DNA of 64,000 bases. It comes from Vibrio tubiashii ATCC 19109 (GTDB lineage Bacteria > Pseudomonadota > Gammaproteobacteria > Enterobacterales > Vibrionaceae). The DNA lies in the NCBI RefSeq assembly GCF_000772105.1, contig NZ_CP009354.1, positions 310,001 to 374,000 on the forward strand, in the 5' to 3' direction. Shown piece after piece: positions 18,916 to 23,873 of the stretch (its first letter is position 1; each line of letters opens with the position of its first letter). Below the pieces are notes generated by a model. That model was not told the origin of the DNA. It worked only from the letters and a program-made list of their open reading frames with translations, and did not search any database. The position numbers were made by a program, and so were the translations under genes.

Positions 18916-19647
18916 CTACACCGCAATACCTACATCGAGCTCATCAAGCCAAGCTAAGAAGCATTGGACATTATCACCTTTAAAAATCCCACCGTGCTGC
19001 GGACAAATCATATCGATATCAAGATTTCGCACTCGTTCAATCCAAGCACTCTTAGCCTTATTTGACGGCATCCAACGTCGATGGAAGTACTCCATCTTTG
19101 GAATATGAGCTTCAAAGTCTTCGACAAATAAAGGGGCATTGGGCACATCGAGCGCCGCCCCAATATCCCCTGACATTAAAATCTTGGCTTTACGATCATA
19201 GACGGAAAAGTTCCCTGATGAGTGCATGTAGTGCGCGGGAATAAATTCGATATCTATGTCAGCAAGCGATAAGCGTCCACCTTCATCTTTGATCGGAGAA
19301 AAGGAGATAGACTCCATACCAAAGTGACGGATAAAGCCTTCCCATAGCCAAGGAGAGTATAGGGTCGCGCTTGGCAAAGCTTTATCCCATAAACCGAGAG
19401 ACGAGATGATGTCCGGATCTTGGTGAGAAGCAAACAGATACTTAATTTGCTCTGTGGGTACTTCCTTGACGACGCTGCTGAGCATGGAAGAAAACATCTC
19501 TATACCACCGGGATCAAGCAGAATCGCTTGCTGCTTGTTGACGATCATATATTGATTGGTATCGATGATCTTTTCCGGTTTGTGAGGATCGCGGGCAAAC
19601 ATGATCCAACGGTGTTCATCATCTCTAAATAAGACTTTTGATTGCAT
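18916..19647 (-). CDS. Flavin-less diiron metallo-beta-lactamase-fold protein (ODP-like)
   Basis: The 243-residue cytoplasmic protein has a metallo-beta-lactamase fold like the N-terminal half of flavodiiron proteins but lacks the flavodoxin domain. Candidate metal ligands are His75, Asp77 and Asp79 (HQDPD in place of the usual HxExD), His142 (YMHSSGN), Asp161 (SGD) and His218 (CPQHGG). This matches oxygen-binding diiron proteins (ODPs), of which the Treponema denticola member is described as an oxygen sensor for chemotaxis. It is the second gene of a pair with a short chemoreceptor-like protein, 9 bases apart. Function is inferred from family and neighbour. A hydrolase role cannot be excluded. 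Confidence 0.8.
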   Translation of the reverse strand: MQSKVLFRDDEHRWIMFARDPHKPEKIIDTNQYMIVNKQQAILLDPGGIEMFSSMLSSVVKEVPTEQIKYLFASHQDPDIISSLGLWDKALPSATLYSPWLWEGFIRHFGMESISFSPIKDEGGRLSLADIDIEFIPAHYMHSSGNFSVYDRKAKILMSGDIGAALDVPNAPLFVEDFEAHIPKMEYFHRRWMPSNKAKSAWIERVRNLDIDMICPQHGGIFKGDNVQCFLAWLDELDVGIAV

Positions 19648-19656
19648 AGTATTCCT

Positions 19657-20256
19657 TTACTCGAACAATGAGAATAATTTGAGGGATTGCAGAACATGGC
19701 TACGGATAGCTTCCGCAGACTCTTGGACACTGTCGGCAATGGAGTTCAGTTGCCCTTTAAAACGCTCTTCGACTTGGGAGGCTTCAACGCTTAGCAAGGT
19801 TGAAATGATCAAGGCAACTCTCAACTCACTGTGGAGCGTATTAAGAAGCGTGCTGAGCTCTTTAGAGTCTTGAATGAAGGTCTGACTGAGCTGCTCTGCT
19901 TCTTCAAAACATCGAGAGCGGGTTGCATCAAGGCTATGGAGGTAAACAGCGCCTTGTGAGCGCGTATAGACGGTTTCAAAATGATTCAGAACAGTACGCG
20001 AGCGCGCTTCAGCAGTGGCTATCTTGCTGAGCCTCTGCGCCTTTAAATTGATACTGCTAGAAGCATTGAGAGTAAGGCGGACAAGTTCGTCAATGGAATC
20101 AGTGATAGGGTGGAAACCAGCCGCACTTTCTCCAGCACGTAAAGCCAAGGCGCGCGCATTGCTTGCAACAAGCTGGAGCTGTTTCGCAATAAGTACACCA
20201 CGATTAAGTTCTGCAGAGATCTCCGCAGCAATGACAAACAGTTGCTTCCTAGCCAT
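19657..20256 (-). CDS. Short soluble protein resembling a degenerate chemoreceptor signalling tip
   Basis: The 199-residue protein has no signal peptide, transmembrane segment or HAMP domain. Residues 21-58 align without gaps with the signalling hairpin of the chemoreceptor at 21254-22879: IAKQLQLVASNARALALRAG here corresponds to [20 protein letters not shown] there, and RAGE, GF and D.I..L are shared. Several tip residues that contact CheA/CheW differ (E to K, T to L, N to Q). The rest is predicted helical coiled coil. It precedes the ODP-like gene by 9 bases, suggesting one transcript and a joint sensory role. No named family was recognised with certainty. Confidence 0.7.
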   Translation of the reverse strand: MARKQLFVIAAEISAELNRGVLIAKQLQLVASNARALALRAGESAAGFHPITDSIDELVRLTLNASSSINLKAQRLSKIATAEARSRTVLNHFETVYTRSQGAVYLHSLDATRSRCFEEAEQLSQTFIQDSKELSTLLNTLHSELRVALIISTLLSVEASQVEERFKGQLNSIADSVQESAEAIRSHVLQSLKLFSLFE

Positions 20257-20364: not shown

Positions 20365-20534
20365 AAAAAGCTTCATCTTGCGATGAGGCACTTTCAAATA
20401 TGGCTCCCTCTGTCGGAACTCAACGCGGCCGGCTAGGACGGTCCGACGCTTCGGCTGAGACATTGGTTTGGAACAAACCAGGAGCAGTAGAAACGAAAAA
20501 GCCTCATCTTGCGATGAGGCTTTTTCTAATATGG
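20365..20534 (-). repeat. Tandem unit derived from a tRNA-Asn 3' end plus terminator
   Basis: Reading the plus strand, a terminator-like hairpin (20365-20394) is followed by a 36-base relic (20401-20436, TGGCTCCC...GGAACTCAACG...CGGCTAG) that resembles the 3' end of tRNA-Asn including CCA. A spacer follows, then the real terminator hairpin (20496-20525) and the intact tRNA-Asn 3' end at 20532. The 37-base spacer at 20459-20495 recurs at 23263-23299. This is a partial duplication of tRNA end plus terminator, and the relic cannot fold as a tRNA. Confidence 0.75.
20496..20525 (-). terminator. Terminator of the first tRNA operon
   Basis: The stem GCCTCATC / GATGAGGC (20501-20508 and 20513-20520) is flanked by A5 and T5. 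On the minus strand it follows the tRNA-Asn CCA end by only a few bases. Confidence 0.88.
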
Positions 20535-20607
20535 CTCCCCCTGCGGGACTCGAACCTGCGACATACGGATTAACAGTCCGCCGTTCTACCAACTGAACTA
20601 AGGGGGA
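20532..20607 (-). tRNA. tRNA-Asn (anticodon GTT)
   Basis: This 76-base gene on the minus strand starts TCCCCCTTAG and ends in encoded CCA. The anticodon loop reads CTGTTAA. The acceptor stem TCCCCCT/AGGGGGA pairs fully. It is the last gene of the first tRNA operon. Confidence 0.97.
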
Positions 20608-20643
20608 ATTATGCTTTAAGAACGAATTCTTAAAGATAATAAA

Positions 20644-20719
<76 letters not shown>

Positions 20720-20729
20720 ACACTAAAAA

Positions 20730-20805
20730 TGGCTCCTCCTGCTGGGCTCGAACCAGCGACCTGCGGATTAACAGTCCGTCGCTCTACCAACTGAGCTAAG
20801 GAGGA
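20730..20805 (-). tRNA. tRNA-Asn (anticodon GTT), variant body
   Basis: This 76-base gene starts TCCTCCTTAG and has anticodon GTT and encoded CCA. It differs from the other Asn copies in the acceptor stem, D-stem, anticodon stem and T-stem, with compensating base changes (TCCTCCT/AGGAGGA). It is therefore a diverged but functional-looking isodecoder. Confidence 0.95.
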
Positions 20806-20826
20806 ATTGTCCATTAGGAAAAGAAA

Positions 20827-20902
<76 letters not shown>

Positions 20903-20956
20903 GCACGTTATTTCTTTTCTTGTTGTTGTCTAGCTTAGACACCAACAAATAAATTG

Positions 20957-21032
20957 TGGTGCCCGGAGGCGGAATCGAACCACCGACACGAGGATTTTCA
21001 ATCCTCTGCTCTACCGACTGAGCTATCCGGGC
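20957..21032 (-). tRNA. tRNA-Phe (anticodon GAA)
   Basis: This 76-base gene starts GCCCGGATAG with anticodon loop TTGAAAA and encoded CCA. It is the first gene of the operon, about 10 bases after the predicted -10 element. Confidence 0.97.
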
Positions 21033-21253: not shown

Positions 21254-22879
21254 TTAGTGCTTAACAGTAAACTTGCTTACCCAGTTTTCTAGCTCATTCG
21301 CTAATCTTGCTAGGCTTTGAGTACTGTTATGACTCTCGGTGACGACGCCACTTAACTGGTTGCCGCTCTCTTCGATCATATTGATTCGCTGAGAAATATC
21401 ATCACTTACTTGAGTCTGTTCAGCCGCTGCTGTGGCAATTTGCTGACTCATTTGGGTAATAGACTCTAGTGCGACAACGATTTGCTGCAATGCTTCAGAA
21501 GCATTTTGCGACTCTTGAACCGTGCTTTCACTGGTTTCTGCACACACTTCCATAGTTTGGATCGCGTTGCGTGAGCCTTCCTGTAAGTTGCTAATCATCT
21601 GCTGAATTTCTTTGGTGCTGTCTTGAGTTCGACCCGCTAGGTTACGAACTTCATCGGCAACTACAGCGAAACCTCGGCCCTGTTCACCAGCACGGGCTGC
21701 CTCGATAGCCGCATTAAGCGCTAGCAGGTTAGTTTGCTCGGCAATATCACCGATAACATCGAGTACCTTAACGATATTGTTTACATCGTTATCTAGGTCA
21801 GCGACAGCTTGACTTGCTGTACCAAGTTGAGTGGCTAAGCCTTGAATATTATCGACAGTATTATGAATCAGGTGCTGAGTATGTTGGCTCTGTTTATCCG
21901 CTTCATCAGTGTTTCTTGCAGTATCACTGGCTGAATCAGCAACATTGCTTGCAGAAGAGGCCATTTCTGTCATTGCTGTAGCGATCATAGCGGTAGATTG
22001 CTGCTGAGAATCAGTAAGCTGGGCAATACTTCCTGCGCGATCTTCTACACTTGCCAATTCGCTACGTAAGTCATGCATTGAACCTTCAAGGTTACTCACT
22101 AGTTGAGCCAAAGACTGACTCATCTGCTGAACTGCTTGATAGATGCTGCCGTCATCGGCTTGGTTTTCAAACGTTGTCTGGATGTTGCCTTTCGCGACTT
22201 CTTGAACTGCTCGGCGTACTTCTTGTGGCTCACCACCAAGAAGAGTGAGCATGCGGCGTATTGACACAATTAATGTGGCTAAGATAGCGCCCGCAATACC
22301 TAAACAGAGCACCAGCTGCCATTGCGCTGTAGACCAAAAACGAGCATTGACTTCATTAAAGCCGATACCTGTCCCTACCACCCAACCCCAATGAGGAGTT
22401 TTCTCCGCGATAGACAGTTTCTCTTCGATGCTGCCATCTGGTTGTTTCTGCGTCCAAGTATACTCAACCATTTGCCCAGTTTTACGACCTAGCACATCGA
22501 GAATGAGTTGCCCAACGCTGTTACCATCGCCATCTTTGAAGTCATGGAAGCTTGTTCCATGAAGCTGCGGATCAAGAGGGGTGGCAACAAAGGTCATCTT
22601 CTCATCGGCAACATAAACATACTCATTGTCTTTGTAGATGTTGTTGCGCAGCAAGCGTGTTGCCAGTTCTTTAGCTTGTTGCTCTTCGAGTGTGCCGTCG
22701 ATCGCCATCTGCTCAACTTCAGTAAGGATACTGTAGGCGCTGCGGAACAATTCTGTTACGCGAGCCTTGTTGTCTAAGTTACTTGCCACGCGCAGAGTCC
22801 ACAGACCTGTTGCGGTTAACGCAAGCAAGGCGATCAAGATAATTCCTGATAATAAATAAGCTTGTGTCTTAAGTTTCAT
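21254..22879 (-). CDS. Methyl-accepting chemotaxis protein with a single Cache domain
   Basis: This 541-residue transmembrane chemoreceptor has a first membrane helix at about 8-30. A periplasmic sCache_2-type domain ([24 protein letters not shown]) covers about 35-190, followed by a second helix at about 188-210, a HAMP region, and a cytoplasmic coiled coil. The hairpin tip is [20 protein letters not shown]. Glutamine/glutamate-rich heptads flank the tip as methylation sites. It signals to CheA/CheW, and the ligand is unknown. It stands alone between two tRNA operons on the same strand, with its own terminator. Confidence 0.95.
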
Positions 22880-23451: not shown

Positions 23452-23527
23452 TGGCTCCCCCTGCGGGACTCGAACCTGCGACATACGGATTAACAGTCCG
23501 CCGTTCTACCAACTGAACTAAGGGGGA
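23452..23527 (-). tRNA. tRNA-Asn (anticodon GTT)
   Basis: This 76-base gene with encoded CCA appears identical in sequence to the tRNA-Asn at 20532-20607. It is the last gene of the second operon. Confidence 0.97.
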
Positions 23528-23582
23528 ATTATTTGTGTTAACAACAGGTCTGTAAGACCACTATTTGTTAAGCACCAAATAA

Positions 23583-23658
23583 TGGTGCCTCGAGGCGGAA
23601 TCGAACCACCGACACGAGGATTTTCAATCCTCTGCTCTACCGACTGAGCTATCGAGGC
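23583..23658 (-). tRNA. tRNA-Phe (anticodon GAA), acceptor-stem variant
   Basis: This 76-base gene has an acceptor stem of GCCTCGA/TCGAGGC instead of GCCCGGA/TCCGGGC, with all pairs preserved. The rest matches the other tRNA-Phe copies. CCA is encoded. Confidence 0.96.
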
Positions 23659-23665
23659 AAAAGAA

Positions 23666-23741
<76 letters not shown>

Positions 23742-23797
23742 ACACTAATATTCTTTTTGCTAACTTATTGATGTCTTAGACACCAACAATCAAATTG

Positions 23798-23873
23798 TGG
23801 TGCCCGGAGGCGGAATCGAACCACCGACACGAGGATTTTCAATCCTCTGCTCTACCGACTGAGCTATCCGGGC
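23798..23873 (-). tRNA. tRNA-Phe (anticodon GAA)
   Basis: This 76-base gene appears identical to the copy at 20957 and is first in its operon. The leader between it and the following Thr (TTAGACACCAACAA...) also resembles that in the first operon. Confidence 0.97.

Follow-up and report, generated by a model that had tools for sequence, protein, structure and literature searches.

A miniature chemoreceptor-like protein paired with an oxygen-binding diiron protein in Vibrio and other Gammaproteobacteria, a candidate input to chemotaxis

Two adjacent genes on the minus strand of Vibrio tubiashii ATCC 19109 are the subject of this analysis, and they lie in a window of 64,000 nucleotides, the whole stretch of DNA analysed (contig NZ_CP009354.1, positions 310,001 to 374,000 of the forward strand; coordinates below count from the first letter of the window). 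An original prediction, made by a model from the sequence alone, had read them as a two-gene unit in which a soluble, degenerate chemoreceptor tip of 199 residues is followed, nine bases downstream, by a flavodoxin-less diiron protein of 243 residues, and the open reading frames agree with it in length, spacing and coordinates. The shorter product is referred to here as the mini and the longer as ODP (oxygen-binding diiron protein). Among named matches, V. europaeus PP-638 is the nearest, at 100% for the 199-residue protein. The features of the two genes are as follows:

19657..20256, minus strand: mini chemoreceptor gene, 199 residues; predicted four-helix single chain; upstream member of the pair
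20077..20190, minus strand: putative tip 1 region, residues 23-60; N33, R40, G47 and F48 kept; turn at 45-48
19717..19821, minus strand: putative tip 2 region, residues 146-180; E158 kept; turn at 160-164; eroded in Vibrio
19648..19656, minus strand: intergenic gap of 9 bases; the mini and ODP genes share a reading frame here
18916..19647, minus strand: ODP gene, 243 residues; diiron metallo-beta-lactamase fold without a flavodoxin domain
19411..19425, minus strand: diiron ligands H75-x-D77-x-D79, from structure alignment and conservation
19222..19224, minus strand: diiron ligand H142, on the same basis
19165..19167, minus strand: diiron ligand D161, on the same basis
18994..18996, minus strand: diiron ligand H218, on the same basis

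Judged by its sequence, the 243-residue protein is clearly an ODP. It matches PF19583 with an expectation value (E) of 1.8e-76 and 256.8 bits, against a curated cut-off of 27.2, and PF00753 is its sole other Pfam match; it therefore carries no flavodoxin domain, as had been proposed. The ODP structures 6qrq (E 1.2e-63) and 6qnm (E 2.6e-61) are matched as well. The six ligands that had been picked out by inspection (H75, D77, D79, H142, D161, and H218) are present at those positions, align with the diiron ligands of both structures, and are all kept in 98 of 98 aligned ODPs.

The mini and ODP genes form a real unit that is co-inherited, a conclusion strongly supported by surveys of the genus, order, class and phylum. 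Strong mini matches (E 2.2e-51 or better) are found in 25 of 227 Vibrio genomes, and these are also the 25 that have ODP matches (E 1e-20 or better), so that the co-occurrence expected across vibrios does hold, though in this minority of genomes only. Any mini match at E 0.001 is found in 141 Vibrio genomes, 116 of which have weak matches only (best E 1.1e-6), almost all of them in receptor-sized frames among the matches listed. The class survey placed ODP in 66 of 321 genomes and returned 27 strong mini matches (E 1.9e-16 or better) from 25 genomes, all 25 of them ODP-positive; every one of the 27 adjoins an ODP match by coordinates, and one has an internal stop inside the aligned stretch. 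Class mini matches at E 2e-12 and worse are, among the matches listed, receptor-like frames of at least 310 residues. At most 14 candidates were scored per receptor-rich genome in the genus survey and at most 9 per genome in the class survey, so that some minis may have escaped detection in both. The two shortest frames with weak mini matches in the genus survey, of 208 and 246 residues (genomes G091 and G218), were rejected as interrupted ordinary receptors with a canonical tip and no ODP nearby. The 63 loci that hold both genes (60 distinct places, three Vibrio loci having been counted twice) carry them on one strand with the mini upstream, and many of these pairs overlap, by 23 bases in 17 of the 25 Vibrio loci, all with start codons guessed by script.

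The phylogeny of ODP gives the same picture. Loci were retrieved best match first, and a mini accompanied ODP in 24 of the 30 fetched in the order survey, in 13 of the 29 that the class survey added and in 1 of the 26 added by the phylum survey. When 98 distinct fetched ODPs are placed in a tree, the 51 with a mini fall on one side of a branch supported at 100/99 and the 47 without one on the other, and this branch is present in 200 of 200 bootstrap trees.

An ordinary methyl-accepting chemotaxis protein (MCP) was considered as a neighbour of ODP and rejected for loci L061-L145, where an MCP profile at E 0.001 matched mini genes only within flanks of up to 1.5 kb; in wider regions, L241 has an MCP frame after ODP, and L239 and L240 have MCP-like frames no more than about 4 kb away. 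Elsewhere in the phylum, an ODP clade (family f217, L122-L144) is often flanked on either side by small genes, and at the only such locus scanned a Roadblock/LC7 protein (L127:2200-2574) lies beside ODP, which is possibly another type of ODP partner. At L071, L074, L076, L077, L079, and L089, ODPs with a domain match longer by 27-30 bases occur with no mini, and genes for pyridoxal phosphate (PLP) enzymes adjoin ODP in the two of these that were scanned (L071 and L079). Many phylum ODP matches elsewhere fall in frames of 600-1,200 residues, and fused ODP domains may be common in the phylum.

Profile comparison indicates that the 199-residue protein is homologous to the hairpin tip of MCPs. A tip motif shared with a chemoreceptor of the window had been pointed out in the original prediction; this similarity is real and strong at the level of a family profile and weak for the single sequence, which matches PF00015 at E 0.0088 and 16.3 bits, under the curated cut-off of 34.6. 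The family alignment contained 124 rows (102 distinct), 67 of them Vibrio-type with near-copies included (50 distinct), and was compared with 30 MCP rows from the window's own genome, with 60 heptad-phase-preserving shuffles and the reversed alignment as decoys. Residues 1-104 of the 124-row profile match the MCP tip at E 5.4e-12 with a score of 71, against 29.2 for the best shuffle and 15.2 for the reversed alignment, and these decoys rule out a chance coiled-coil similarity. When the MCP profile is split into N arm, tip and C arm, this half scores 16, 65 and 19, respectively. A search of PDB with a 42-sequence mini profile returned MCPs as the top 13 of 21 matches (best E 1.1e-10), and together with the family profile this bears out the mini-receptor character that had been claimed.

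The description of the protein as a degenerate chemoreceptor tip, conversely, stands for the homology and not for the number of tips, as family-level evidence points to two hairpin tips in one chain. Under the whole-family profile, residues 105-199 match the same MCP tip at E 3.5e-7 with a score of 42.2 (shuffles at most 16.9, reversed 16.8), score 13, 37 and 14 against N arm, tip and C arm, and are matched by the N-terminal half of the mini itself (E 6.7e-5, score 26.6; shuffles at most 16.4). In a relative at locus L222, tip 1 still has the sequence NAKGVAARAGE, and tip 2 has NSRTEAARAGE. The AlphaFold2 model predicts four helices of 42, 52, 55 and 33 residues, lengths that leave no long adaptation arms, with turns at the expected tip positions and helix breaks at 99-106 and 160-164; the antiparallel hairpins that a structure prediction had been expected to reveal are present in it. 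Homology and predicted fold support the view that the mini may imitate a receptor dimer within a single chain, its two tips lying at the same end. With this model, Foldseek returned no match of E 0.001 or lower, and VIA-align listed 50 entries, generic helical bundles for the most part, among which PilJ (7zjr periplasmic region, 8wdf) is the sole chemoreceptor; the missing MCP tips are uninformative because an MCP dimer consists of two chains.

The conserved tip residues appear to be divided between the two hairpins. In Tsr numbering, tip 1 keeps N381 in 124 of 124 rows, R388 as R or K in 123, G395 in 119 and F396 in 120, and has E385 in none; tip 2 keeps E385 in 122 of 124 rows and has N381 in 8. 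The original prediction had also proposed changes at positions that contact CheA and CheW, and this is what is found: at R394, V398, E402 and R404, which we take to be CheA/CheW-side or tip positions, all 67 Vibrio-type rows differ, with A for R394, P for V398, D for R404 and E402 lost. Among the 57 other rows, V398 survives in 17, E402 in 18 and R404 in 22, and the minis of che operons retain R404 in 6 of 6, E402 in 3 and V398 in 2. In excerpts of a paper on receptor trimers, one subunit of each dimer is described as facing the trimer axis and the other as facing CheA/CheW (PMC4692393), and because the two subunits face differently, an asymmetric one-chain pair of tips is by analogy mechanically plausible.

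Gene neighbourhoods link the pair to chemotaxis, in line with the role that had been suggested for it. For the 26 other class pairs the surrounding regions were labelled, with Pfam confirmation at L217, L218 and L219 and with che labels from phmmer and profiles at L216, L220 and L241. The pair lies inside a che operon in 6 of the 27 class loci (L216-L220 and L241), which belong to six families, in orders such as MCP-CheW-CheW-mini-ODP-CheR-CheB and CheY-STAS-CheA-MCP-MCP-CheW-CheB-mini-ODP-CheR. At L221, about 1.8 kb upstream of the pair, is the end of a cluster with CheA, CheW, CheR, CheD, CheB and MCPs, and at L226, counted among the pairs that show no che cluster, a response-regulator-like frame lies beside the mini. 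The six che-linked minis group with that of L233 (97/93), and genomes G770 and G577 each have two minis, one from either group. In the che operon at L218 (L218:11195-15358), receptors with NIT and Tll0287-like sensor domains occur, hinting at nitrogen-oxide or heme signals there.

The preferred reading, to which a probability of roughly 0.57 is assigned, is that mini and ODP constitute a soluble oxygen- or iron-sensing module in which the mini carries the state of ODP into the chemosensory array, in Vibrio via trimer contacts. ODP would, by analogy with its family, bind Fe(II) and O2 at the diiron site, and its dedicated partner, a single chain of about 200 residues with two chemoreceptor-like hairpins, would imitate the tip of a receptor homodimer. 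ODP would dock on the mini, which would convey its state to the array, as the che-operon linkage suggests. In Vibrio, entry into the array through receptor-receptor (trimer) contacts, and not through the usual CheA/CheW face, is probable because the usual contact residues are gone, and the activity of CheA would in turn be tuned by oxygen or iron. The pair probably makes oxygen or iron status an input to the steering of the cell, because it is inherited as a unit and is sometimes found inside che operons. A bolder version is offered tentatively and as rather unlikely in its entirety: the minis would be a family of minimal receptor-dimer mimics, each locked to its own ODP clade, with tip residues divided between hairpins, and the Vibrio mimic would enter trimers but be unable to hold CheA/CheW, so that oxygen or iron status switches neighbours off or on by subunit substitution and not by ligand binding.

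Several observations weigh against the module reading. When the 67 Vibrio-type rows are taken alone, the tip 1 match falls to E 9.6e-5, tip 2 is undetectable (E 0.098), and the two halves have no mutual match (E 0.13); the second tip is a family-level proposition, apparently eroded in Vibrio and seen solely with non-Vibrio relatives. For the window sequence alone, the second stretch matched by the MCP model is co-linear with the MCP C arm and not with the tip, and the best PDB profile matches are co-linear with one hairpin (2ch7: 13-190 on 125-306). The model of an artificial in-frame mini-ODP fusion reached a predicted local distance difference test score of 80.1 and a predicted template-modelling score of 0.59, which speaks neither for nor against docking. 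Twenty of the 27 class pairs, that of the window included, have no che cluster in or beside them as far as seen, several of these regions being shortened by contig ends, and the CheW gene nearest to the window's pair on the contig is hundreds of kb away. CheW is present in 47 of 47 mini-bearing genomes tested, a count that has no matched control set and stands beside CheW in 7 of 14 standard genomes. In the 12 upstream regions, of 26, that were placed and scanned for motifs, FNR-like sites occur in 6 against a shuffled mean of 3.7, not clearly above chance, a sigma-28 motif in 1 against 3.35, and Fur, NorR/NsrR and sigma-54 motifs in none.

The behaviour of the Vibrio sequences would suit a short protein that is one truncated receptor hairpin, with a short N arm and a long C arm, were it not that the whole-family C half scores 37 against the tip and 14 against the C arm with decoys no higher than 16.9, that the predicted helices break at both 99-106 and 160-164, and that the L222 relative retains its tip 2 motif; this explanation is very improbable. 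Less easily dismissed, though still improbable, is a redox module independent of chemotaxis, in which ODP would be an enzyme or an iron/O2 buffer and the mini a coiled-coil scaffold recruited from a receptor. The many pairs outside che clusters are in its favour, as are the unrelated genes (PLP enzymes, the Roadblock protein) that adjoin the scanned ODPs of the clade without a mini, but the derivation of the mini from an array protein, the pairs embedded in che operons of six separate families and the CheW genes of all 47 mini-bearing genomes tested speak against it. A decoy or insulator is the least improbable of these alternatives, though unlikely: the mini would occupy receptor trimers or cap CheA/CheW without supporting the kinase, and the iron/O2 state of ODP would remove or release receptors and not supply a further sensor input. 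Such a role would fit Vibrio-type minis, which have lost all four CheA/CheW-side equivalents, in a family that keeps N381, R388 (as R or K) and the E385 of tip 2; the contact roles of the four are, however, presumed, and che-operon relatives keep part of the usual face, so that the ancestral role may be ordinary input. That the mini is a decaying remnant without function is barely credible, for despite the weak PF00015 match its sequence is conserved and the pairing is strict across families.

Upstream of the pair, a receptor with an sCache_2 sensor is encoded at 21254-22879, with tRNA arrays (Asn, Thr and Phe copies) at 20532-21032, also upstream of the mini gene, and at 23452-23873 on either side of this receptor gene. 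A 53-base repeat (20365-20417 and 20496-20548, 87% identical) comprises a hairpin resembling a terminator and the beginning of a tRNA-Asn 3' end; because this stretch is present twice, the mini gene and the tRNA array may have a decayed tRNA copy between them.

Comparison with known systems draws on excerpts of the papers cited. In Treponema denticola, ODP (TDE2498) is coupled to the soluble MCP homologue TDE2496, which modulates CheA, and deletion of ODP alters the order of CheA in arrays (Muok 2019, by way of PMC7666581); operons that join ODP and MCP genes in either of two orders have also been described (PMC7319448). The present pair shares with that system the ODP fold and ligands and the genetic coupling to a receptor homologue without a membrane or sensor part, but differs from TDE2496, compared by its description only, in being a 200-residue chain with two shortened, divergent tips. 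Natural soluble single-chain receptor signalling domains of unknown function, like engineered ones, have two receptor signalling units per chain (Mowery 2015, PMC4692393), as the mini appears to have, whereas the mini is little beyond tips, asymmetric, and tied to a fixed sensor partner. DosM of the V. cholerae F9 arrays, a purely cytoplasmic array, likewise has two signalling domains per polypeptide, but forms a long rod whose two ends each bear a domain (PMC7534058), where the mini model would put both turns together at one end. The PF00015 signalling domain itself shares the homologous tip, from which the mini departs in falling below the curated cut-off, in its want of long adaptation arms and, in Vibrio, in the loss of the canonical CheA/CheW contact residues. 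Excerpts of a 2026 aerotaxis review describe a hemerythrin-type receptor and do not contain the word ODP (PMC13401364). No description of a two-tip chain of about 200 residues fixed to one ODP clade surfaced in the literature searched, a scope that excludes the PNAS 2019 ODP paper and Wuichet 2010. Pairs of ODP with a receptor are known, as are single-chain receptors, and it is their combination here that looks new.

What the pair would offer is a miniature single-chain receptor with a fixed sensor partner of known chemistry, a broad spread in Gammaproteobacteria and linkage to che operons. Because of that partner, distribution and linkage, two questions become testable: the function of single-chain receptors, and the residues that a receptor requires facing the trimer axis in contrast with those for the CheA/CheW side. 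The pair further points to a little-recognised oxygen or iron input in chemotaxis.
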